A stretch of DNA of 64,000 nt from positions 2,542,001-2,606,000 of the forward strand of contig NZ_AP025017.1 of the NCBI RefSeq assembly GCF_019974135.1. The letters are read 5' to 3'. The notes under the pieces were generated by a model, which worked only from the letters and a program-made list of their open reading frames with translations, ran no database searches and was not told the DNA's origin. This DNA comes from Actinomyces capricornis. GTDB lineage: Bacteria; Actinomycetota; Actinomycetes; Actinomycetales; Actinomycetaceae. Every line of letters begins with the position of its first letter. Within the stretch, counting starts at the first letter, position 1. This document shows positions 23,751 through 37,224 of this stretch, piece by piece. The position numbers and the translations under genes are program-made.

Positions 23751-26735
23751 ATGACGGACACCACTTCCCAGGGGTCATCCCAGGGCACCGCCGAGGCAAC
23801 CCCCTACCGCTACACCGCGGCACTGGCCGACTCCATCGAGACGGCCTGGCAGGACCGCTGGGAGGCCGAGGGGACCTTCCGCGCCGACAACCCCGTGGGC
23901 GACCTGGCCGGACCGGGCGCGCAGCAGGAGAAGTTCTTCCTGCTGGACATGTTCCCCTACCCCTCGGGCAAGGGCCTGCACGTGGGCCACCCGCTGGGCT
24001 ACATCGCCACCGACGTCGTGGCCCGCTTCACCCGCATGACCGGCAGGAATGTGCTGTACACGATGGGCTACGACGCCTTCGGCCTGCCCGCCGAGCAGTA
24101 CGCGGTCACCACCGGCCAGCACCCGCGCATCTCCACCGAGGCCAATATCGCCAATATGCGCCGGCAGCTGCGCCGCCTGGGCCTGAGCCACGACCCCCGC
24201 CGCTCCCTGGCCACCATCGACGTGGACTACGTGCGCTGGACCCAGTGGATCTTCCTGCAGATCTTCAACTCCTGGTTCGACCCCACCGCCCCGCGCCGGG
24301 ACGGGCGGGGCCTGGGGGCGGCCCGGCCCGTGAGCGAGTTGCGCGAGAAGCTGGCCAGCGGCGAGGTGGCCGTGCCCGACGGGCGCCAGTGGGAGAGCCT
24401 GAGCGCAAGTGAGCAGGCCGGGGTCATCGACTCCTTCCGCCTGGCCTACGTCTCCTCGGCGCCGGTGAACTGGTGCCCGGGCCTGGGAACCGTGCTGGCC
24501 AATGAGGAGGTCACCGCCGAGGGCCGCTCCGAGCGCGGCAACTACCCGGTCTTCAAGCGCCACCTGCGCCAGTGGATGATGCGCATCACCGCCTACGGCG
24601 ACCGCCTGGCCGAGGACCTGGACACGGTGGACTGGCCTGAGAAGGTCAAGCTCATGCAGCGCAACTGGATCGGCCGGTCCGAGGGCGCACAGGTGGCCTT
24701 CGCCGTGCCGGGGGCGGGCGAGGACGCCGCCCTGGAGGTCTACACCACCCGGCCGGACACGCTCTTCGGCGCCACCTTCATGGCGGTGGCCCCCGAGCAC
24801 CCCATCCTGGGGGGCATCGACTCCTCGGCCTCGGTGCGCTCGGAGGACGAGATCGCCGCCGATGCTGGCGCCCTGAGGGTGCCGGCCGCCTGGCCGCAGG
24901 GCACCCGGGAGTCCTGGACCGGCGGGTACGCCACCCCGGCGCAGGCGGTGGCCGCCTACCGCGCCCGGGCCGCGGCCACCACCGAGGCCGACCGGACCGA
25001 TGAGGGGCGGGTCAAGACCGGTGTGTTCACCGGCCTGTTCGGCATCAACCCGGTCAACGGCGAGCAGATCCCCATCTTCGTGGCCGACTACGTGCTCATG
25101 GGGTACGGAACCGGGGCCGTCATGGCCGTTCCCGCCCACGATGAGCGCGATCACGCCTTCGCCACCGCCTACGGCGTCGACATGGTCCAGACCATCGGGC
25201 CGCTTGAGGATCCCGACGGCGTCGACCTGTCGCAGGGGGCCTACACGGGCGACGGCGTTGTGGTCAACTCCGCCCGGGGCGACCTGGACATCAACGGCAT
25301 GGGCAAGGAGGAGGCCAAGGCCGCCATGATCGACTGGCTGGAGGCCAGGGGTGCGGGCCGCCGGGCGGTGACCTACCGCCTGCGCGACTGGCTCTTCTCC
25401 CGCCAGCGCTACTGGGGCGAGCCCTTCCCGATCGTGTGGGACGAGGAGGGCGGCGTCCACGCCCTGCCCGAGTCGATGCTGCCCGTGGAGCTGCCCGAGG
25501 TCACCGACTACTCGCCGCGCTCCTACGATCCTGAGGACGCCGAGTCCTCCCCGGAGCCGCCGCTGGGCAAGGCCACCGACTGGGTGGAGGTCGAGCTGGA
25601 CCTGGGCGATGGCCTGCGCACCTACCGGCGCGAGACCAACACGATGCCCCAGTGGGCCGGCTCGTGCTGGTACGAGATGCGCTACGCCGACCCCACCAAT
25701 GAGGACGCGCTCATCGATCCGGCCAATGAGGCCTACTGGATGGGGCCCCGGCCCGAGGCCGGCAACACCTCGGGCGGCACGGACCTGTACGTCGGGGGAG
25801 TGGAGCATGCGGTCCTGCACCTGCTGTACTCCCGCTTCTGGCACAAGGTGCTCTTCGACCTGGGCGTGGTCAGCTCCTCGGAGCCCTACCACCGCCTGTT
25901 CAACCAGGGCTACGTGCAGGCCTACGCCTACACCGATGCCCGCGGCCAGTACGTGCCCGCCGAGGAGGTCGTGGAGGAGACGGGGGAGGGCGGCGAGCCG
26001 GTCTTCACCTGGCAGGGCCAGCCGGTGCGCCGCGAGTACGGCAAGATGGGCAAGTCCCTGAAGAACATCGTCACCCCCGACGAGATGTACGAGGCCTACG
26101 GGGCCGACACCTTCCGCGTCTACGAGATGTCCATGGGCCCCCTGGACGTGGACCGCCCCTGGGAGACCCGGGCCGTGGTGGGGGCGCAGCGCTTCCTCCA
26201 GCGCCTGTGGCGCAATGCCGTCAGCGAGGAGACCGGTGAGGTCACCGTCGTCGACGAGGCGGCCGACGACGCCACCAGGCGCCTGGTGGCCCGCACGATC
26301 GTGGGGGTGCGCGAGGACTATGAGGGGATGCGCCTGAACACGGCCATCGCCAAGCTCATCGTGCTCAACAACCACCTCACCGGTCTGGAGGCGGTGCCCC
26401 GTGAGGCGATGGAGGCCCTGGTGCTCATGACGGCGCCGGTGGCCCCCCATATCGCCGAGGAGCTGTGGAGCAGGCTGGGCCATGCGGGCTCCCTGGCCCG
26501 CGAGCCCTTCCCCGAGGTGGCCGACGAGTCGCTGCTGCGCGCCGAGGAGGTCACCTGCGTGGTCCAGGTCAAGGGCAAGGTGCGCGACCGCCTTCAGGTG
26601 GACCCGGATATCAGCGCCGAGGAGCTGGAGCGACTGGCCCTGGCCGCCCCGGGCGTGGTGCGGACCCTGGAGGGCCGGGGCGTGCGCAAGGTGATCGTGC
26701 GGGCCCCGAAGCTGGTGAGCATCGTTCCGGAGTAG
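23751..26735 (+). CDS. leuS: leucyl-tRNA synthetase
   Basis: Class I synthetase charging tRNA-Leu. 994 residues, at the long end for bacteria. HIGH-type motif [16 protein letters not shown] near residue 70, editing CP1 domain with [14 protein letters not shown] and [24 protein letters not shown]-type motif [17 protein letters not shown] near 765, and the C-terminal anticodon-binding region ending in [15 protein letters not shown]. It has an insertion near 185-215 ([20 protein letters not shown]) common in actinobacteria. The GC-rich coding sequence stops abruptly at the AT-rich island that follows. Confidence 0.98.
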
Positions 26736-26802
26736 GGAGATGAAACAGACTCCAAGATTGGTTAGTTTGCTAAAAAAGAGGCGAACCTAAGAAGAAGTTG
26801 CG

Positions 26803-27540
26803 ATGTTCATGAAGGTCAAGAATTGGATTAAAGATGGATCGCTCCAGGCGGGTTTAATTCCAGTATATTCAGCAGTGCTTGCCTTCCTTCTTTCTCTAGC
26901 TTTAGACTGGATATTCGGTCGATCTGATCCCTGGTTGGCAGTCGCTTGCGTAGTATCAGTCTTCGTTGTGTATATTCTTACTTCGCTTACAGTCCACGCG
27001 CGCTATGTGGCTCCGGTGGAGCGCGCTTCAAGGCGCATAGATGAACGAGTTGATTTATTTTTAAGAAAGGCGGATTTTGGGGGATTCGAATGGATTGTGG
27101 ATAATGCTTATCTTAAGGCGGTCGAAGCTGGCGAATCGGTGGAGGAAGTGTGGATTGTTTCCGTGGATCTCGCTGGAGATCTTGAGCGTGGAGATTTCGT
27201 AGACGTTGTTCGAAGAAATATTCAACGCGGGGTTAAATATGTGTACTTTATTCCTGATAATAGAGTCAGGTTTTCGAAGGTCGCAGCCCTTAAGGATGTC
27301 TATAAAAGTAACCCTCTTATAAAGGTGCAGTCTCTTAATGGGGATTTCTTTTTTCTTGTCAAGGATCTTGATTTTATCATCTATAACCCCACAGGTAGTT
27401 CTCGGTCTGGGTTTATGGGACTTCCGGTGGATGATGGGCGTGGTCGATGGACGGCAAGGATATCTGACAGCCTTATGGATGTTCTGGTGGGTAAACTTAA
27501 TGAGTTTCTTGAAAATGGTGGGTCGAGCGTGAAGTGGTGA
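26803..27540 (+). CDS. AT-rich unknown membrane protein with soluble domain, possibly PLD-like
   Basis: Protein of 245 residues; base composition and codon use (many A/T-ending codons) are unlike the surrounding genes, a sign of transfer. Two N-terminal helices (about 17-36 and 43-64) are followed by a cytoplasmic domain containing VEEVWIVSVDLAGDLERGD, VVRRNIQRGVKYVYFIPDN and FFFLVKDLDFIIYNP. The pattern 'statement of location - rG.kY.yf.P' resembles phospholipase-D-like fold proteins without a visible HKD motif. No family is assigned with certainty. It starts the accessory island after leuS and faces the OLD-like gene across the IS cluster. ATG 26803 or 26809 could be the start; AAGAAGAAG lies before both. 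Confidence 0.75.
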   Translation: MFMKVKNWIKDGSLQAGLIPVYSAVLAFLLSLALDWIFGRSDPWLAVACVVSVFVVYILTSLTVHARYVAPVERASRRIDERVDLFLRKADFGGFEWIVDNAYLKAVEAGESVEEVWIVSVDLAGDLERGDFVDVVRRNIQRGVKYVYFIPDNRVRFSKVAALKDVYKSNPLIKVQSLNGDFFFLVKDLDFIIYNPTGSSRSGFMGLPVDDGRGRWTARISDSLMDVLVGKLNEFLENGGSSVKW

Positions 27541-27586
27541 TATGGGGTTGGCGATAAAGAAAAGGGGGGTGCCCCTATGCGGTGTG

Positions 27587-28718
27587 TCAAGCGGCGGTTG
27601 CTAGTGGCTGTGCTGGTTGGGGGTTGTAGAGGGTGCCGTCTCTGAGCATTGCGTAGAGGGTGAGGATGCGGCGGTGGGCCAGGGCGAGGATGGCTTGGCC
27701 CAAGGCGTTTGCCCTGGGCGATCTTGCGGTCGTAGTAGGCGCGACTGATGGGGTCGGATCTCAGGGAGGCGAAGGCGGAGCCGAACATGGCTCGCTTGAG
27801 TCTCTTGTTGCCGCCGTGGGAGACGTGCTCGCCGCGGATCGAGGAGCCCGACCTCTTGGTCACGGGTGTCAGACCGGCGTAGGAGGCCAGGTGCGCACCG
27901 GTGTCGAAGGTGCGCCCGAGGGTCTCAGCGATGAACACTGCGGCGGTCCTGACCCCGATCCCGGGCACGGGTGGTCAGGACCTCGTAAAGAGGGTGGGCC
28001 TCCACCAGGGCCTCGACCTGGGTGGCGATGTCACGGCGCTGGGCGTGCAGGGCGATGAGCTGGCGCGCCAGGTGGGGCAGGACGACGCCAGCGGCGTCGG
28101 TCCCCGCGACGGTGAGGGTCTGCTTGGTCAGGGCGCCCATGATCTCCTGCGTCCATGAGGCATGGCGACGAGCCCCGTGAGTCTTGAGCTTGGTGTCAAT
28201 CCTTGTCTTACCCGCCCGCTTGAGCTTGGCTGGAGTGGGCCAGGAGGCGATCACCTCCAGAACGGCGTCGTGCTCGAGCCGGGGGCCCAGGACGGCCTGG
28301 AGTACGGGGTGGATCTGGGTGCACACGGGCCCCGGATACGGTTGGCGGTCTGGTTGACCTGGCGGGCCAGGTCCAGGTCAAAGCCGGTGAGCATGCTCAG
28401 CGCTGCTGCATCCTGGTCACTGGCATTGATGGCTCTCAGGGTGTGGGGCATGGTCCGGGCGGCCTGGGCGATCACCTGAGCATCACGGGCGTCGGTCTTG
28501 GCCTGTCCTGGGGTCAGGTCGGCGATGCGCCTCATGGACAGGCCCGGCAGGTAGCCCACAGTGATGCCCATGTCCTGAGCCACTGCCACGGCCAGGGCCC
28601 CGATGGTGGCGGGCTGGTCGACCACCACCAGGAGGCTTCCGTGGTCCTCCAGCTTCTTGTAGAGGGCTCGTAGACCGGCCTCGTCGTTGGGCAGAGCCTT
28701 GTCGAAGACCTTCGAGCC
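27587..28718 (-). pseudogene. IS110-family transposase, truncated and frameshifted
   Basis: Remains of an IS110 transposase. The DEDD part reads KVFDKALPNDEAGLRALYKK to ADLTPGQAKTDARDAQVIAQ, breaks frame near 28330, continues as QIHPVLQAVLGPRLEHDAV, breaks again near 27960, then gives the C-terminal Transposase_20 block (MPGIGVRTAAVFIAETLG, HLASYAGLTPVTKRSGS, SHGGNKRLKRAMFGSAF) and breaks once more near 27715 before ending LRDGTLYNPQPAQPLATAA. The first 20-30 residues with the first catalytic Asp are missing because the neighbouring IS256 element begins at 28719. Not functional. Confidence 0.85.
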
Positions 28719-30153
28719 TGTCAAGTTTTCTGTGTAAGCGGGTGGGTTAGAGGTAGGGGTTGATGCGGTCGGGGTAGGCGGTGGTGAGTTGGGCCAGGGC
28801 CTGCTTCCAGTTGGTGGTGGTCTGGCCTTCGATGAGGTGGCCCTTGGCACGCCTGTCGGGGGCGCGTTTGCCGGTCTCCTTGGCTCGTTCGTAGGCGCGG
28901 TTGTCCTCGATGTCGCAGATGGTCAGCCACAGCAGCTTGGTGGCGGCTTCGTCGGAAGGGAAGTGGCCTCGGTTCTTGGTGACCTTGCGCCGCTGGTAGT
29001 TCAGCGACTCGATACTATTAGTGGTGTAGATCACTCGTCGCAGGGCCGGGGGGAAAGCCAGGAAAGGGGTGAACCGTTCCCAAGCCCGCTCCCAGGTCGC
29101 CGCGGTCTGGGGGTACTTACCGCCCAGGTCGCTGGAGGCGAAGTCCTCCAGGGCCTGCCAGGCGGCCTCCTGATTGGGGGCGGTGTAGACCGGCTTGAGG
29201 GCCGCGGCGACCTTCCTGCGATCGGCGTAGGACACAAAGCGCATGGAGGCCCTGATCAGGTGGTACCCGCGCAGGTCTGGACCACTGAGTCGGGCCAGGT
29301 CGCTTCGATGGCCTCGGGCAAGCCTGTTAGCCCATCACAGCATACGATCAGCACGTCAGACACGCCCCGGTTGGCCAGATCGGCGCATACGTGGGCCCAG
29401 AAGGAAGCTCCCTCGTCGGCCCGGGGCCCAGATGCTTAAGGCACATGCTTGATGCCCTCCATATCCACGCCGATGGCGATATGAGCGGCACGATTGGCCA
29501 CCCGATTGCCCTGGCGGATCTTGATCCTGATGGCATCCAGGTAGACCACCGGGTAGAAGGCCTCCAGCGGGCGCTGCTGCCAGTCCATGACCGCCCCAGC
29601 GCACCGCGTCAGTGATCCTGGGGTGATCGTCGCACTGGACAGGTCCACCCCCAGCGTCTTACGCAGGTGATGGGAGATGTCGCGCACTTCTCAATCCCCC
29701 CGGGCGTACCAGGCCTGGTGATTCACACGCATCCAACCCGTCCATCGGGCGCTGGCCCTTGCGCACCAGGCGCGGGGTAAAGCTCCCCGCCCGGTCCCGG
29801 GGGACCTCGATCTCGAAGGACCCCACCTCCGAATCGATGGTCTTAGTGGTGGTGCCATTGCGGGCGTTACCCCTGGCCTCGGTGGTGGGCTCGCCCTTGG
29901 CATAGCCCAGGTGGTCACCTGGCTCGGCGCGCAGCCCGGCCTCCAAGGACTCCTTGAGCAGTGCGGGCAGCAGCCCGTCCTGACCAGTCAGAGGCGTCGA
30001 GCCCTCACGGATCTGGGCCAACAGCCCATCAAGAGCACCACAGTCCCGAAGCTCAGCAGCCACCTGAGCACCAGAAGCAGGAACAGTCTTGTCATCCATC
30101 ACAGTCATCAGTGTGCCAGTCCTTCCAAGAGGGCTTACACAGAACAGTTAACA
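28719..30153 (-). mobile_element. decayed IS256-family insertion sequence with terminal inverted repeats
   Basis: 1435 bp bounded by 21-bp imperfect inverted repeats: 28719-28739 and 30133-30153 match at 18 of 21 positions (GCTTACACAGAA at the inner part). It cuts into the IS110 gene on its left side. The 8-bp flanks (TTCGAGCC and CGCCCAGA) are not a duplication, so the element moved with rearrangement or its right flank was lost. Confidence 0.8.
28747..30108 (-). pseudogene. IS256-family transposase, frameshifted
   Basis: Mutator-type transposase in at least three frames. N-terminus from 30108: DGLLAQIREGSTPLTGQDGL, SFEIEVPRDRAGSFTPRLV. Middle frame: DISHHLRKTLGVDLSSATIT and VYLDAIRIKIRQGNRVANRA (first catalytic Asp). 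C-terminal frame: [60 protein letters not shown] with the catalytic Glu, ending DRINPYL. Breaks lie near 29700 and 29440. The pieces cover the whole family length, so this is a recent decay of a full element. Confidence 0.85.
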
Positions 30154-30203
30154 CGCCCAGACCTTCCGCCCGTGGTCAAGTCTTTTTGTGTGGTGTAAGT
30201 GTT

Positions 30204-31463
30204 CTATCGGGTGATGGTGGTCGCTGTGGGTTGGTCGGTGGTCAGGGTGGTGGCGAGTTGGTTCATTGAGGTCTGGGAGAGGTAGCGGCGTTCGGCGTAG
30301 CGCCATTCCTCGTGCTGCTCGAGCAGGATGGCGCCGATGAGGCGGGTGGCGCTGTCTCGATCGGGGAAGACCTGGACGACGTCGGCGCGGCGCTTGATCT
30401 CGCGGTTGAGGCGCTCGATGGGGTTGTTGGACCAGATCTTCTGCCAGTGCTCGCGGGGCATGGCGGCGAAGGCGGTCAGGTCGCTCTGGGCGTCGGTGAG
30501 CATCTGGGCGACCTGGGGGAAGGACTCGCTCAGGGAGTCAACGACCTTGCTGTACTGCGCTGCCACGGCCTGGGGGGTGGTTTGGGCGTAGACGGTGGAG
30601 ATCAGGGCGTTGACCGGCTTGGAGTGGGCTGAGCCCACGGTGTGGGTGACGTTGCGGGCGAAGTGCACGCGGCACCGCTGCCAGGCCGCGCCCGGCAGGA
30701 TCGCCTTGACCGCGGCCCTCAGGCCGGCGTGGGCGTCACTGGTGACCAGTGCGACCCCCAGCGGGTCGGTTGGGCTGGAGATCCTCAATCCCCGCTGGCG
30801 CAGGGAGCGCAGGAAACCGGTCCAGAAGTCGGTGGTCTCGGCGTCCCCGAGGGCCATGCCCAGGATCTCGCGGTTACCGGACCCGGACACGCCGGTAGCC
30901 ACCACCATGGCCTGGGAGACGACCCGGCGCCCGATGCGCACGTCCAGGTAGGTGGCGTCCAGGAACAGGTAGGGGAACCAGTCGTGGTCCAGCGGGCGTG
31001 AGATGAACTCCCCGACGGCCTCGTCGAGCTCCTTGCAGATCCGCGAGACCGTCGAGCGGGAGATCCCCGACTCGCAGCCCAGGGCCCGCACCAGGTCGTC
31101 GACCTTGCGGGTGGAGACCCCCTCGACCCAGGCGGTGGCGATCACCGCGTACAGGGCCTTGTCGACCCGCCTGCGAGGGTTGAGCAGCGAGGGGTAGAAG
31201 GACCCGGTGCGCAGCTTGGGGATGGCCAGCTCAATGCTTCCGGCAGTGGTGTCCAAGGTCTTGGCGCGCTTGCCGTTACGCCTGTTGGTGCGCTGCTCGG
31301 TGCGCTCATAGGGCGCCGCGCCGATCACGGCGGCGGCCTCGGCGTCCACCAGGTCCTGCAGGCCGGCCTGCAGCATCCGGCGGAACACCTCGTCATGGGC
31401 CAGGCCGGGGTCGTCCAGGACTTCCCGGATCAGCACGGACACGGCAGACTGGTTCTTGGGCAT
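30204..31463 (-). CDS. IS256-family transposase, apparently intact
   Basis: Protein of 419 residues, full length for the family and uninterrupted. Motifs: AHDEVFRRMLQAGLQDLVDA, ELAIPKLRTGSFYPSLLNPR, SRSTVSRICKELDEAV, YLFLDATYLDVRIGRRVVSQ with the first Asp, ALVTSDAHAGLRAAVKAILP with the second, and WSNNPIERLNREIKRRADVV with the Glu. It belongs to a different subgroup from the adjacent decayed IS256 element. ATG 31463 has AAGGAG in front, but that ATG lies in a 14-bp stem. The ends of this element could not be defined: no convincing inverted repeats were found. Confidence 0.93.
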   Translation of the reverse strand: MPKNQSAVSVLIREVLDDPGLAHDEVFRRMLQAGLQDLVDAEAAAVIGAAPYERTEQRTNRRNGKRAKTLDTTAGSIELAIPKLRTGSFYPSLLNPRRRVDKALYAVIATAWVEGVSTRKVDDLVRALGCESGISRSTVSRICKELDEAVGEFISRPLDHDWFPYLFLDATYLDVRIGRRVVSQAMVVATGVSGSGNREILGMALGDAETTDFWTGFLRSLRQRGLRISSPTDPLGVALVTSDAHAGLRAAVKAILPGAAWQRCRVHFARNVTHTVGSAHSKPVNALISTVYAQTTPQAVAAQYSKVVDSLSESFPQVAQMLTDAQSDLTAFAAMPREHWQKIWSNNPIERLNREIKRRADVVQVFPDRDSATRLIGAILLEQHEEWRYAERRYLSQTSMNQLATTLTTDQPTATTITR

Positions 31464-31518
31464 CGTGGGGACACTCCTTGTGAATCTTGGTCGACGAACA
31501 CGGACCCCACGATGCCCA
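31457..31518 (-). promoter_or_regulatory. hairpin sequestering the IS256 transposase start codon
   Basis: 31457-31470 and 31505-31518 are perfect 14-nt complements. In the transposase mRNA the 3' arm contains the ATG start codon while AAGGAG lies in the 34-nt loop. Such 5' fold-backs in other insertion sequences block translation of read-through transcripts; here the function is inferred. Confidence 0.6.
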
Positions 31519-31939
31519 CCCCAGCACCCCCGGCTGGCCAAGCCCCGCAGGAATTACCACCACACTACGAGACGCACCCCCGCCCGTCCCGGGTCAGTGC
31601 TGTCGCCCAGTGCTCGTTGCCGACGCCCGGTGCCGACGAAGACCTCAATATCCTCGATGTCCATGCGCCCTACAACGCCTCTCGTGCTCGTGACACGGCC
31701 AGCGCGTGAGCAGACGGTTCCGCACCCACGCCTGCGAAAGACCTCGCCGCACAACGGCGGGTCGTTCCCCTGATCAGCGGTCACCCTCTGCCCGCCACCA
31801 CCGGTGACAACACCCCCCGGATCATTGGGTAGACAGGGGCAAGACATCATGCCGGAGGCGGCTGGCCCGGCCCCGGACCACCCAGGACCACCAACAAGGT
31901 AACGGGCGTGGGTAGGGGCATGCGGGGCCTGGGGGCACA
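31519..31939. other. non-coding remnant between IS elements
   Basis: No credible coding sequence; open frames here are short and lack recognisable domains. Composition is GC-rich like old mobile-element debris. Nothing else seen. Confidence 0.4.
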
Positions 31940-31978
31940 GTGGTGTGTATGAACAACATCTACTTGCTCCGGTCAGGC

Positions 31979-32137
31979 CCCGCACGGGTGTCCTATCGTG
32001 CCACGCTTGATGTGCCTGTTTTTTCCACTGCCCGTACCATCAGCGCCTGGCTGGCTGCCCACCGCAATGCCCATGACATCCGGCCTGGCCAGCGGACGGC
32101 GACTAGCTGGGTCCAAGTGGTGCTGGCGGGGCGCTAG
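31979..32137 (+). pseudogene. IS5-like transposase N-terminal fragment
   Basis: The frame reads VSYRATLDVPVFSTARTISA, then WLAAHRNAHDIRPGQRTATS and stops at AGR. YRATLDVP...LAAHR....R.G.RA.T..QAVL is the usual N-terminus of actinobacterial IS5-type transposases; the catalytic domain is absent. Identified by eye only. Confidence 0.5.
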
Positions 32138-32146
32138 CTCATCGAG

Positions 32147-32327
32147 GCCACCGACATGCCGGTCTACCTCGCCGATCCCCACGGCCCGGCAATCAGGCTC
32201 CAACGAGAACACAGGTGGACTGATCCGCCAGGACCTGCCCAAAGGCCCCCCCCATCCCCAGTACCAGCTCTACCCCACCACCATCGCTGAAGAACTCAAT
32301 GAACGCCCCCGAGCCACCCCGGACTAG
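32147..32327 (+). pseudogene. IS30-family transposase C-terminal fragment, frameshifted
   Basis: ATDMPVYLADPHGP in one frame passes, by a +1 shift near 32187, into RQSGSNENTGGLIRQDLPKG and IAEELNERPRATPD. The N-E-N-T-x-G-L-x-R-Q motif with catalytic Glu is diagnostic of IS30 transposases, as is NxRPR. Only the C-terminal 60 residues survive. Confidence 0.7.
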
Positions 32328-32434
32328 CCCCCCGCCAAGCCCTCGAACGCCTCCTCGCTGCTCCCACCCCTTGACACTAGGCACAAGAAGTGATGAGAAT
32401 AAACAATGAGAGTGGTTTAGGGTGAAGCTATATT

Positions 32435-33964
32435 TCACTCCCTAATTCCTTGAGACACGAGGCAGGGGAGTGCTCCTTCCCACATTCGTTCCACTTTTTC
32501 CGGGAAACTATCGCACCAAATCGTTATAAATGCTCTTTCAACGGTGTCGGTTGGTAGGAAGTCTAAATCTTCTGCTATCTGTGCGAATAGCAGGTGAGGG
32601 TCTCGGCATGTGGACCGACGCGTCTCTATTGATTTCTTTACCTGAGTTTGCGAGTCTGTGTCTAGTGTCAATCGTTGCGTAAGTTTCCCGAGAATCTGAG
32701 TTAGTTTAGCGTAAACATCCTCGAATATCTCGACTTCCGGATGGGAATCGCCGGGACAAAACACAGTCGAGGTAAACTTCAAATCACCTGCTTTTATTTC
32801 TTTTGTAGAGAATTTCGAGTTGTTTTTCATGTCGCCATCTAGTAGTGCAATTGCAGGAAAGGATGAAGTTGGATTACTGTTGTGGTAGGCGACATGCTGA
32901 TATGCAGAGTCAGCTCCACTCATGTGATGAATTTCTATGGAGGATCTTTTCACACCTTGCGATTTCAGTTTTCGTAAAGTTATATCCGCTAGAACAGCAC
33001 CAAAACTGTCTTCTGTGAAAACTGCTGCCTGACACTCTACTTCTCCTGTCAGAGTGCGGAGAGCTTCGATGTCAAGTTTCCCTTGCTTTACCTTCCCGTC
33101 GTAACATGACCAAACTGCATCGTCTGGAAGTGCCTCTAGTGCTGCATTGGAATGCGTCGTGAAAACGACTTGGGTTGACTTTCTCTTAGCGACATCTATT
33201 AGATATTCAACTAATCTCCTCACCGCTAACGGATGGAGGCCATTTTCGATCTCCTCGATCAACATCAAACACCCATCCTGTGCTTCCTCGATTTCTGATA
33301 CGATTCTAATTATACTTGCTTCCCCGGCTCCGAAATGAAATTCAGAGTACCCTACACTCGAGGTTGACTCGTCGCGCATGGCAAAGATTTTCGTCTTAGT
33401 TTTATCTGCGCTGATACTTAGGTAGTTGTCCGCATTCTTTCCCAAGATTTTCTGAACCGCATCGACAATTGCTTGCGAAAAAGTGTGCTCTTCAGATCCC
33501 TTGAAGTTGTTTCCAATGAATGGGTTTAGGTTCTTTCGTTCTGTTGCAGGAAGTGTCCTATCGATGCCAATTACTAGTACTGAACGGGTTAATGCGTCTC
33601 GATTCCATTTTGCCTGACGGAAACTTGCGGTTCGAGTTATCGACGTTCCAGACTTCATGTTTTCGCTAAGCGCGGTATACTCTATTTTCCAATTTTGCAT
33701 GGAGTCATCGTAGCGCCCGCTTTTTGCAAAAAAACGTCTAGGTGACACGGACTTATAAAGCAAGCCAGCCGCTCCAAGAACTGTGGTTTTTCCTGACCCG
33801 TTGGGGCCAATCAGAGCGGTAACTGGAAAATCAAAGGTAATCTCAGTATCACTGAACCCTCGAATTTTAACAAGACGCATTGACTTTAGGTATTCTGCAT
33901 ATTTATTTCTGCGAACTCTTTCTGAGAGGTCGTTGATCTGAGATGGGCGAATTTCTGATTTCAT
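32435..33964 (-). CDS. OLD-like ATPase with TOPRIM-like C-terminus, AT-rich, candidate defence gene
   Basis: Protein of 509 residues, clearly AT-rich with codon use unlike its neighbours. SMC/ABC-type AAA ATPase: Walker A IGPNGSGKTT at 52-61, ABC-like signature FHFGAGEASI, Walker B LMLIEEIENGLHP near 235, and VVFTTHSNAALEAL with the switch His. The C-terminal part has AAVFTEDSFGAVLAD near 316 and AIALLDGDMKNN near 372, matching the Glu and DxD positions of TOPRIM nuclease domains. This layout is that of OLD/overcoming-lysogeny-type proteins, many of which protect against phage. AAGGA precedes the ATG. No clear partner gene adjoins, which fits the stand-alone class; phage defence is an inference. 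Confidence 0.8.
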   Translation of the reverse strand: MKSEIRPSQINDLSERVRRNKYAEYLKSMRLVKIRGFSDTEITFDFPVTALIGPNGSGKTTVLGAAGLLYKSVSPRRFFAKSGRYDDSMQNWKIEYTALSENMKSGTSITRTASFRQAKWNRDALTRSVLVIGIDRTLPATERKNLNPFIGNNFKGSEEHTFSQAIVDAVQKILGKNADNYLSISADKTKTKIFAMRDESTSSVGYSEFHFGAGEASIIRIVSEIEEAQDGCLMLIEEIENGLHPLAVRRLVEYLIDVAKRKSTQVVFTTHSNAALEALPDDAVWSCYDGKVKQGKLDIEALRTLTGEVECQAAVFTEDSFGAVLADITLRKLKSQGVKRSSIEIHHMSGADSAYQHVAYHNSNPTSSFPAIALLDGDMKNNSKFSTKEIKAGDLKFTSTVFCPGDSHPEVEIFEDVYAKLTQILGKLTQRLTLDTDSQTQVKKSIETRRSTCRDPHLLFAQIAEDLDFLPTDTVERAFITIWCDSFPEKVERMWEGALPCLVSQGIRE

Positions 33965-34021: not shown

Positions 34022-36103
34022 TTACCGCCGTCGCAGGGTGCCGAAGATGGAGCGGGTGATCTCCCGGGTGATCTGGCGGCCCACCGAGCCGATGGTCCTC
34101 TCGATCTCCCGGTTGCGGCGCTGGGCGGCGCGCTCGGCCTCCCGCTGACGGCGCTCGGCCTCCTTAGCGGCCTCGCGCTCCAGCCGCTCAGCCTCCTTCT
34201 GGCGCTGAGCCGCCTCCTTCTCCGCAGCCTTCTGGGCGGCGGCCTCGGCCTTGGCCGCCTCCTTGGCGGCCTCCTCCGCGGCGCGCGCCTCCTCGGCGGC
34301 CTGGGCATCGGCCGCCACGCGGCTGGCCAGCAGCTCGTAGGCGGACTCGTTGTCCACCGTCGTCGCGTACTTCGAGGCCAGGGCCGAGGAGGACAGCACC
34401 TGGGCCACGGTGGCCTCCTGGGCCGGGCCCATGACGGCGGCGGGGGCGTTGACGACCACGGGGGCCACGGGCGCGGGTCGGCCCTTCTCATCCAGGACAC
34501 TGACCACCGCCTGGCCCGTGCCCAGGCTGGTGAGCACCTGGCTGAGGTTCAGGGGGCTGGTGGGGAAGGTGGAGACTGCCTTCTTCAGGTTCGCCGCATC
34601 GGCCGGGGTGTGGGCGCGCAGGGCGTGCTGGATCCGCGAGCCCAGCTGGGCCAGGACCTCGTCGGGCACATCCGTGGGGGACTGGGTGATGAAGACGATG
34701 CCCACCCCCTTGGAGCGGATGAGGCGCACGGTGCGCACCACTGCCTCCAGGAAGGCCTTGGTGGCGCCGGAGAAGAGGAGGTGGGCCTCGTCGAAGAAGA
34801 ACACCATCGTGGGCTTGTCCGGATCGCCCACCTCGGGCAGGGTCTCGAAGAGCTCGGCCAGCAGCCACATGAGGAAGGTGGAGAACAGCGTGCCCTGGGA
34901 CTGGATGTCGGCCAGCTCCAGGGCGGAGATGAGGCCGCGCCCGTCGGGGGCGGTGCGCATGAGGTCGCGCACGTCCAGGGCGGGCTCGCCGAAGAAGGCG
35001 TCCCCGCCGGCCGCCTCCAGGGCGGCGATCTGGCGCAGGATGACCCCGGCCGTGGCCGCCGAGACCCCTCCGATGGTCTTGAGCTCGGCCTTGCCGGCAT
35101 CCGTGTTCGTCAGGTAGTCCACGACGGCGCGCAGGTCCTTGAGGTCCAGTAGCGCCAGGCCCTGGGCGTCGGCCCAGTGGAAGACGAGTTGGAGGGCGGA
35201 GGCCTGCGTGTCGTTGAGGTCCAGGACCCGCGAGAGCAGGATCGGCCCGAACTCGGTGACCGTGGTGCGGATCGGGGTGCCCTTGACCGCCCCGTCCTGG
35301 GCGCCGCCGCCCAGGGTGAACAGCTCCAGGGGGAAGGACTGGGGAGCCCACTGCTGGCCGGTGGCGGCCGTGCGGGCGGTGAGCCTGTCACTGGTGGTGC
35401 CCGGTTCGGCCAGGCCCGTGAGGTCTCCCTTGATGTCGGACAGGAAGACCGGGACACCCGCAGCGCTCAGCCCCTCCGCCAGCAGCTGGAGGGTGCGGGT
35501 CTTACCGGTTCCTGTGGCGCCCGCCACCAGGGCGTGGCGGTTGAGCAGCCCCAGGGGGATGCCGACCGACAGGCCGGCCACGGGTGCGGGCTCGCCCTCG
35601 GCCTGGGTGTCGAGGTAGGTGCCCACCGGCAGGGTCGGGGCGGAGAAGGAGTAGCCGTCGCGGACCTGGGCGGCGTAGCTCGATGGCGCTGGCTCGTGCG
35701 AGGGCGCGGCACCTTCCGATGGCGCTGTGGACTCTGCTGGAGCGGCCGCAGGGGGCTCCGACGGCGTCGCGGCTGGCCGGGCGGCGGCCTCGGCGCCTGG
35801 GGCCTCGACCGCAGGGTGCTCAGCGGGCTGCTGCGCCTCCTCGGCGGGCTCCTGCTCAGCGGGCGGCGGGCTGCCCGCTACGGCTTGCGCTGCGGCCTCG
35901 CCCGCCTCAGAGGCGCGCTCGGCCGCACCGGCGCCGTCGTCGGCATCGGCGGTTTGGTCGTCGGATGGGGCATCGGGCGTGGCCCCGGAGGCGATCGCGG
36001 CGTCGAGGGCGGCTTGGGCGGCGGCTGCCTTGGCTGCGGCGGCCTCAGCGGCGGCCTGCGCGGCCTCGGCCTTGAGGCGTGCGATATCAGCGGAGTCGGT
36101 CAT
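34022..36103 (-). CDS. HerA-like ATPase, DUF853 family
   Basis: Protein of 693 residues. N-terminal 150 residues are Ala/Glu/Pro-rich and start with a helical coil (IARLKAEAAQAAAEAAAAKA). The RecA-like ATPase domain has Walker A VAGATGTGKTRTLQLLAEGL near 190 and Walker B VFFFDEAHLLFSG near 432, plus the arginine-finger region QSPTDVPDEVLAQLGSRIQH. The C-terminus is a long charged coil (EAERLEREAAKEAERRQRE) ending FGTLRRR. DUF853 proteins are double-stranded DNA translocase-like ATPases of unknown role in many bacteria. Common in GC-rich hosts, so it probably marks the resident side of the island border. Confidence 0.9.
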   Translation of the reverse strand: MTDSADIARLKAEAAQAAAEAAAAKAAAAQAALDAAIASGATPDAPSDDQTADADDGAGAAERASEAGEAAAQAVAGSPPPAEQEPAEEAQQPAEHPAVEAPGAEAAARPAATPSEPPAAAPAESTAPSEGAAPSHEPAPSSYAAQVRDGYSFSAPTLPVGTYLDTQAEGEPAPVAGLSVGIPLGLLNRHALVAGATGTGKTRTLQLLAEGLSAAGVPVFLSDIKGDLTGLAEPGTTSDRLTARTAATGQQWAPQSFPLELFTLGGGAQDGAVKGTPIRTTVTEFGPILLSRVLDLNDTQASALQLVFHWADAQGLALLDLKDLRAVVDYLTNTDAGKAELKTIGGVSAATAGVILRQIAALEAAGGDAFFGEPALDVRDLMRTAPDGRGLISALELADIQSQGTLFSTFLMWLLAELFETLPEVGDPDKPTMVFFFDEAHLLFSGATKAFLEAVVRTVRLIRSKGVGIVFITQSPTDVPDEVLAQLGSRIQHALRAHTPADAANLKKAVSTFPTSPLNLSQVLTSLGTGQAVVSVLDEKGRPAPVAPVVVNAPAAVMGPAQEATVAQVLSSSALASKYATTVDNESAYELLASRVAADAQAAEEARAAEEAAKEAAKAEAAAQKAAEKEAAQRQKEAERLEREAAKEAERRQREAERAAQRRNREIERTIGSVGRQITREITRSIFGTLRRR

Positions 36104-36109
36104 GATGCC

Positions 36110-36115
36110 ATCGTA
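36110..36115 (-). promoter_or_regulatory. -10 element of a leaderless transcript (HerA-like gene)
   Basis: TACGAT on the minus strand ends exactly 6 nt (GGCATC) before the ATG at 36103, and no ribosome site is present. Confidence 0.6.
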
Positions 36116-36341
36116 AACGCTCACTGTGACATCGGGGCCGACTCCCGGGCGGCCGTGCACCCCGACTGCCTGAGCGACGGCGTGGGGGCGGGGTTGTCCA
36201 CAGGTGTGGTGGTTGGGGTGGCGTGGGGCCGGTGGTGTGGTTACAGTCGTGTGATCAGTACTGGTCAGTGTGGACCGTGCTGGTGGTTCCCGGTTTCTCT
36301 GCTTGGTGATGATGGTGGTCGATGATGAGCACGTATGGCAT

Positions 36342-36558
36342 GCGCGGGGGTTGGCGCTCTGGGACGGTGGGACCTGGCCGGTGCGGTGATGCCCGCGGGC
36401 CGGTGGGTCGGCGGCGCTTGAGGTCGTTATGTGGGCCCGTGGGGCGGGGGCCGGGGGCTCGGGGGCCGCGGTGGCGGGCCCCGGGGCGTGGTGCCCGTGG
36501 GCTGGTGGGTCGAGGGCGTTTGGTGCCGGTGGTCGGGCGCGGGGGTTGGCGCTCTGGG
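36342..36558 (+). repeat. 22-bp direct repeat and G-run cluster upstream of the DUF6318 gene
   Basis: Two perfect 22-bp copies at 36342-36363 and 36537-36558 are 195 bp apart, an exact multiple of three. Between them, near 36432-36470, the plus strand has five runs of three to five G separated by one to five bases, a classical G-quadruplex pattern. The stretch is G-rich throughout and may be untranslated leader or Arg/Gly-rich N-terminal coding sequence. Confidence 0.6.
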
Positions 36559-36561
36559 TGG

Positions 36562-37224
36562 GTGCGGTTGGTGGTGGTGTGCTTGGTGCTGGTGGTGCCG
36601 GTGCTGGGTGGGTGTGGTGGTGGGGCTGCTGCGCCGGTGGCGAGTGCTGGGGGTGGTGAGGGCTCGGCGGGTGCGTCGGGTGCTGCGTCTGGGGGGTCGG
36701 GGGCTTTGGACTCTGGTGTGGCGGCCGATCCGAGTGGTGGGCCGGTGGTGGAGCTGCCGGCGGAGCAGGCGGCCAGTCGTCAGGCGGCTCTGGCGACCCC
36801 GTTGCCTGACAGGCCGGTGGGTATGGATGAGGACTCCCCGGCTGGGGCGATCGCGACGGCGGAGTACTTCGTTCAGCTCTATCCGTATGTGTATGCCACG
36901 GGGGACTTGACGGAGTGGCGGGCGATGACCCGTAAGGACTGCGCCTTTTGCACATCAGTGATCGACAATGTCACCGAGCTGCACAGCAAGGGCGGGTGGA
37001 CTGAGTTCTGGACGCCGGCGGTCAGTCAGACCCAGTATGTCGAGCCTGGCGCGGGCAGCGACTACTCCCGTGTGGATATCGCGATCAAGCAGGAAGAGAC
37101 CCGCACCTATGACGGCACTGGAGGTGAGCCCAAGATGGGTGAGGCCCGGGATCGCGTTGTCGTCATCCTAGCTATGAAGTATGAGAACGGGCGGTGGATT
37201 ATTCGTGGCGGTGATGTTCAATGA
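36562..37224 (+). CDS. DUF6318 family lipoprotein
   Basis: About 220 residues. Lipoprotein signal LVVVCLVLVVPVLGGC (lipobox LGGC) is followed by a Gly/Ser/Ala-rich linker and a folded domain with SPAGAIATAEYFVQLYPYVY, TGDLTEWRAMTRKDCAFCTS and VVVILAMKYENGRWIIRGGD. This matches the DUF6318 pattern of Actinomyces and relatives; function unknown. GTG 36562 is chosen because it places the signal peptide at the N-terminus; ATG 36322 is in frame and would add 80 Arg/Gly-rich residues with an internal repeat. The stop overlaps the next start as ATGA, so the two are translated together. Confidence 0.65.
   Translation: MRLVVVCLVLVVPVLGGCGGGAAAPVASAGGGEGSAGASGAASGGSGALDSGVAADPSGGPVVELPAEQAASRQAALATPLPDRPVGMDEDSPAGAIATAEYFVQLYPYVYATGDLTEWRAMTRKDCAFCTSVIDNVTELHSKGGWTEFWTPAVSQTQYVEPGAGSDYSRVDIAIKQEETRTYDGTGGEPKMGEARDRVVVILAMKYENGRWIIRGGDVQ

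Follow-up and report, generated by a model that had tools for sequence, protein, structure and literature searches.

A stretch of 64,000 nucleotides from Actinomyces capricornis (contig NZ_AP025017.1, positions 2,542,001 to 2,606,000; the window) contains two AT-rich genes between leuS and the gene for a HerA-like ATPase (Table 1). The product of the second gene is, by its sequence, a full-length member of HEC-04 (Hma-embedded candidate 04), a single-gene anti-phage family, and the first gene, designated P1, encodes a predicted membrane protein. We consider it highly probable that the HEC-04 gene is a stand-alone anti-phage gene, acquired horizontally and working by ATPase-switched cutting of nucleic acid, and that P1 was acquired separately. 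An earlier note on the window had described the pair as an OLD-like ATPase/TOPRIM gene and a membrane protein in a small defence island or cargo. The observation was good, and the reading was partly right: one gene is of a defence type already known, here at a new site, and the other is an orphan.

The PADLOC model of HEC-04 (PDLC04149) matched the second protein with 668 bits (E 1.8e-201) over residues 2–497 of its 509. The next best PADLOC model, AriA, scored 73 bits. The protein contains GPNGSGK (residues 53–59), FHFGAGE (209–215), LIEEIE (235–240), H271, E318/D319 and D376-G-D378, which we take to be the Walker A motif, the signature, the Walker B motif, the H-loop and the TOPRIM residues, respectively. 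The set of an ATP-binding cassette (ABC)-type ATPase (Walker A/B, a signature-like motif and the H-loop) was present, and all the motifs described earlier, including the TOPRIM-like Glu and DxD, were located.

Seventy-eight relatives and the window copy were aligned as 79 distinct rows. K59, G212, G214, H271, E318, D319, P409, D455 and H457 were found in 79 of 79 rows, and E237, E238, D376, D378 and E410 in 78; one row was gapped at both E237 and E238. The window copy kept every near-invariant residue. ATPase- and TOPRIM-type residues were expected to be conserved; apart from these, two pairs were invariant or nearly so, a D-x-H in the C-terminal part (residues 455–457; window 32594–32602, minus strand; 79/79 rows) and a P-E. 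These pairs are direct targets for mutagenesis that may reveal the working of HEC-04.

The D-x-H of HEC-04 was found to align with D-A-H of IbfA from plasmid R64. In the HEC-04 of a Cellulomonas plasmid (locus L051), three residues were missing at the Walker B glutamates of the other copies. This copy is possibly inactive, or else the gap may be a sequencing error.

AlphaFold2 modelled the HEC-04 protein with a predicted local distance difference test (pLDDT) of 92.2 and a predicted template modelling score (pTM) of 0.87. With this model as query, Foldseek ranked 6p74, an OLD nuclease, first (E 1.1e-13) and GajA next (E 3.3e-12), and the order of strands and helices in residues 313–375 fitted TOPRIM. 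The motif residues, this order and the loose match in Foldseek suggested that a TOPRIM fold in the C-terminal part is likely, short of proof. The rest of the earlier assignment, an OLD-like defence gene, was supported by PADLOC, the residues and the model, and could be given the name HEC-04.

The neighbours of 68 non-redundant HEC-04 loci were compared (671 open reading frames (ORFs) of 60 amino acids or more, within 4 kb). Just one family recurred in at least four loci, being present in five. This pointed to HEC-04 being a one-gene system.

We interpreted HEC-04 as most likely a one-gene, infection-triggered defence that would cut nucleic acid. First, the SMC/Rad50-type ATPase domain, for which both the motifs and the predicted fold were found, would bind ATP and probably dimerise. 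Second, a cue of the infection would shift the state of the ATPase. Third, the TOPRIM-like part of the fusion, in which E318 and D376/D378 are putative metal ligands, would cut nucleic acid and abort the infection. The third step is modelled on the OLD-type relatives and on the printed phenotypes of HEC-04 and IbfA. According to passages of PMC12111858, HEC-04, cited there as a fusion of an ABC ATPase and TOPRIM, protects E. coli against T4 and T5 and not against T7 or lambda, and IbfA of pUA1135, which is 97.5% identical to R64 IbfA, aborts infection by a P22-like phage.

Several points weigh against this interpretation. The anti-phage activity reported for HEC-04 is taken second-hand from those passages of PMC12111858, and concerns another copy. 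IbfA, which is better studied, is only a distant relative of the HEC-04 protein (24% identity; 141 bits to the HEC-04 model). In the E. coli OLD protein YbjD, the TOPRIM domain is dispensable for the phenotype, according to passages of PMC13261556; the nuclease step could therefore be wrong. The Foldseek alignment to OLD was long but loose (579 columns, template modelling score 0.39, root-mean-square deviation 16.5). Residues 297–509 of the window protein matched no Pfam TOPRIM model, and there was no such model for 61 HEC-04 members among the matches listed (25 of 41 families). A second structural comparison spanned mainly residues 20–304. The lack of TOPRIM folds in the VIA-align list was uninformative, because the ATPase part fills that list. 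Finally, no HEC-04 was found in 50,697 phage records (tblastn, E 1e-8), in contrast with the matches in viral contigs.

Compared with known systems, the window protein shares with HEC-04 the full-length match, the single-gene ATPase-TOPRIM design and the near-invariant residues, and differs in its host lineage and site, both of which are new. IbfA of the IncI1 plasmid R64 (L187:18654–20210, recognised by its adjacency to proQ and its HEC-04 match) has the same overall design. It was aligned by hhalign at 99.8% over 419 columns, including the VED, LDGD, PE and DxH motifs, but it is set apart by its low identity and by its score to the HEC-04 model, 141 against 668 bits.

The class 1 OLD proteins (Thermus scotoductus OLD, 6p74; E. 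coli YbjD/OldB) also combine an ATPase and a TOPRIM-like C-terminus in an isolated gene. However, 6p74 matched the sequence of the HEC-04 protein in two ATPase stretches only, and YbjD gave just 28.7% in hhalign. PF11398 (DUF2813, annotated as a YbjD domain) was touched by 26 of 61 HEC-04 members, with a best E of 3.3e-4.

GajA of Gabija, PtuA of Septu and retrons, and AriA of PARIS have a related ATPase domain. These are multi-gene systems, with the partners GajB, PtuB and AriB. A Pfam scan of the ten neighbouring ORFs found no UvrD-type (GajB) domain, no PtuB HNH domain and no AriB-like domain; the ORFs matched IS (insertion sequence) transposases, HerA or nothing. The GajA models scored 47–56 bits to the HEC-04 protein, among the matches listed, and the best AriA stretch (73 bits for the whole protein) covered residues 180–273 of the ATPase part.

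The HEC-04 gene and P1 are intact open frames, convergent, with IS debris in between. The start of the HEC-04 gene lies 57 bp past the stop of the HerA-like gene, in the same orientation, and a Shine-Dalgarno-like AGGAAAAGGAA was read by eye upstream of it. The GC content was 0.453 in P1 and 0.448 in the HEC-04 gene, against 0.700 in the window, 0.710 in leuS and 0.724 in the HerA-like gene. At third codon positions (GC3) it was 0.419 and 0.420, against 0.954 in leuS and 0.845 in the HerA-like gene. When GC was profiled along the whole window with a sliding 1-kb frame, the lowest values fell in these two genes. The ORFs, the compositions and the matches of the flanking genes (TIGR00396 and PF05872) bore out the description of two AT-rich genes facing each other across an IS cluster.

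In the two nearest genomes, DNA homology ended at 26731 and 26733 (the end of leuS) and restarted at 34023, where the HerA-like gene ends; no DNA match lay between these points. The intervening 7.3 kb is therefore strain-specific.

The comparison was extended to 48 further genomes of the genus, with one stretch following leuS from each (4.6–11.4 kb; two end early at contig ends). HEC-04 was absent from all 48 (tblastn, 1e-10). By tblastn, 35 of them had a HerA-like gene after leuS, and in 13 none was detected. The gap between leuS and HerA, measured between the ends of the tblastn alignments, was less than 500 bp in 15 of the 35 and 0.7–9.2 kb in 20. The 20 larger gaps had varied content, e.g. 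sugar ABC operons, acetyltransferases, surface proteins and IS elements (named by eye), which was mostly non-defence as judged by eye, with no PADLOC scan of the ORFs. With gaps that were either short or variably filled across the genus, the interval is one where cargo turns over, and it is worth mining.

Relatives of HEC-04 were found in 60 loci on genome contigs (the final three partial or weak) and 24 on viral contigs. On plasmids, four relatives showed 42–56% identity over 95–98% of the protein, among 250 records with any match. PHROG phrog_3940 matched the protein with 201 bits over residues 24–417. In the tree of the 79 rows, the 55 rows with a phylum label represented seven phyla, and the row nearest to the window copy was that of Austwickia chelonae (66% identity; support 100/100), within an actinobacterial group. 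The HEC-04 gene tended to be GC-poor in the relatives too: in 74 of the 78 its GC content was below that of the flanking DNA, and in 62 the difference exceeded 0.05.

The composition, the tree, the plasmid and viral-contig relatives and the absence from the 48 stretches supported arrival of the HEC-04 gene in the leuS–HerA interval by horizontal transfer, in agreement with the acquired cargo proposed earlier.

In a sample of the phylum, 1 of 396 genomes had a HEC-04 match at E 1e-30, namely the window's own (three candidates per genome scored, among the matches listed). Twenty-nine of 59 relatives gave some match at E 1e-3, and all save the window's own were partial and AAA-type. Among 14 control genomes, Synechococcus elongatus gave a HEC-04 match. 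The window holds a well-conserved copy of a single-gene defence family that was described only recently. It lies at a site of cargo turnover, and no other copy was detected in the genus.

With its SMC/Rad50-like ATPase, HEC-04 might instead act in the repair or segregation of DNA, be it cellular or that of a mobile element. We consider such a role unlikely, in view of the patchy presence of the gene, its AT-rich cargo composition, its carriage on plasmids and viral contigs, and the anti-phage activity that the cited passages report for the family. Acquired anti-phage defence remained our preferred function of HEC-04.

P1 had hydrophobic stretches within residues 12–39 and 41–67, as seen by hydropathy, and no family of Pfam, PADLOC, NCBIfam or PHROGs matched it above chance. 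This agreed with the two helices and the soluble domain with no assignable family that had been described for it. No solved structure matched it (best E 0.16). AlphaFold2, run on the single P1 sequence, gave a pLDDT of 46.5, too low for a fold search.

Lysines and arginines numbered 3 in residues 1–16 of P1 and 7 in residues 66–90, with just 3 in the latter stretch of its relative. By the positive-inside rule of membrane topology, this suggested that the soluble part probably faces the cytoplasm.

A phospholipase D (PLD)-like fold was considered for P1 from a reading of the order of its strands. There was no Pfam match to it, and P1 has no His after residue 95. The two-row profile of P1 gave an hhalign probability of 0.3 against 28 PLD proteins; this value is unreliable, as an unrelated control and 1 of 20 column shuffles gave 99%.

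The sole accepted relative of P1 came from a second genome of the genus (G029, locus L061), with 42% identity and likewise 245 amino acids. Its gene immediately follows leuS on the same strand, and unrelated genes come next. The LeuS proteins of the two P1-bearing species are 86% identical over the C-terminal 378 residues. Compared with this, the 42% identity of P1 suggested that P1 either evolves fast or entered twice. In both P1-bearing genomes, out of 49 in the genus, the gene adjoins leuS (window 26736–26802; L061).

P1 matches were obtained in 2 of 59 relatives, 1 of 396 genomes in the phylum sample, 2 of 49 in the genus, 1 of 396 in the order sample and 3 of 213 in the family. These counts include the window's own genome, the samples overlap, and the seeded searches may miss distant relatives. 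The third match in the family (E 2.2e-4) was discounted; it covered only profile positions 19–88, the membrane helices, in a frame of 616 codons. None was found in plasmids, phages, viral contigs or genome contigs (two peptide patterns). A search of plasmids with the protein of the relative yielded two hits, whose E values of 3 and 8 are at chance level.

P1 is most likely a membrane protein that was acquired separately. We regard as improbable the bolder proposal that P1 is the first of a new family, whose two-helix membrane proteins would be linked to the 3' end of leuS and perhaps expressed together with it by read-through. Such proteins would be membrane effectors or sensors of phage defence, and HEC-04 would have come to lie beside P1 later. 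Two points deserve a closer look: the recurrence of P1 next to leuS and the invariance of the DxH pair in HEC-04.

It was also conceivable that P1 and HEC-04 formed a two-gene defence system, in which HEC-04 would sense infection, P1 would act on the cell from the membrane, and the IS elements would have been inserted later. The equal composition of the genes (GC 0.45, GC3 0.42) and their common interval were in line with it. So was the content of the 48 stretches that follow leuS elsewhere in the genus, of which none had HEC-04 and one had P1.

On the other hand, the genes are convergent, and the only other P1 had no HEC-04 beside it. None was detected in the rest of that genome, where the best match to the HEC-04 protein covered 64 residues. 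Conversely, the 89 loci compared around HEC-04-like proteins (about 5–7 kb per side, in some less) had no P1-like sequence by tblastn (E up to 1); a HEC-04-like frame was obtained from 85 of them. A P1 profile search of 187 loci, excluding those of the window's genome (G000) and G029, gave matches at E 2.2 or worse only. Because P1 and HEC-04 were not found together beyond the window, the two-gene system was rejected as the leading explanation, and we consider it very unlikely. The suggestion in the earlier note that P1 may be an effector was likewise not supported.

A further possibility is that the IS elements, which lie between the genes and of which two are broken, moved the pair here as passive cargo or as remnants in decay. 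This is most improbable, since both frames are open, HEC-04 keeps its near-invariant residues, the Shine-Dalgarno-like sequence precedes its start, and P1 is equal in length to its 42% identical relative.

A dedicated defence island was also rejected. One gene of the two is linked to defence, and elsewhere in the genus the leuS–HerA gaps are often shorter than 500 bp or filled with what is, by eye, mostly non-defence, ordinary cargo.

Table 1. Features of the leuS–HerA interval and its flanks (positions in the window).
Feature	Position	Strand	Remarks
P1 (first gene)	26803–27540	+	245 aa; two membrane helices (predicted) and C-terminal soluble part
HEC-04 family gene (second gene)	32435–33964	-	509 aa; ATPase ~24–304, TOPRIM-like ~310–380, helical C-terminus
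leuS (left flank)	23751–26735	+	TIGR00396, 874 bits (cut-off 548.4)
HerA-like ATPase gene (right flank)	34022–36955	-	PF05872 HerA_C, 587 bits
IS110-family transposase in pieces	27591–28715	-	PF02371 and PF01548 in two different ORFs; outer bounds approximate, by eye
Broken IS256-family element	28710–30158	-	PF00872 split over three ORFs
IS256-family transposase	30204–31541	-	open frame, 445 aa; PF00872, 412 bits; NF033543, 331 bits

In the IS110-family pieces, the match of the second ORF begins at profile position 18. The broken IS256-family element has inverted repeats of 24 bp (28716–28739 and 30133–30156) that are 83% complementary. An IS30-like remnant was read by eye at about 31.9–32.3 kb, where the one ORF scanned had no Pfam match.

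In three other species (loci L067, L091 and L096), a similar sugar ABC transporter operon was seen by eye in a leuS–HerA interval of 7–9 kb. Among the 48 stretches, DNA matches of more than 100 bp within the interval were found in one species only, L083 (genome G020; blastn, E 1e-5). Its leuS–HerA interval contains an IS256-family copy whose DNA shares 76% identity with the broken element, and a 105-bp match to window positions 32147–32249.

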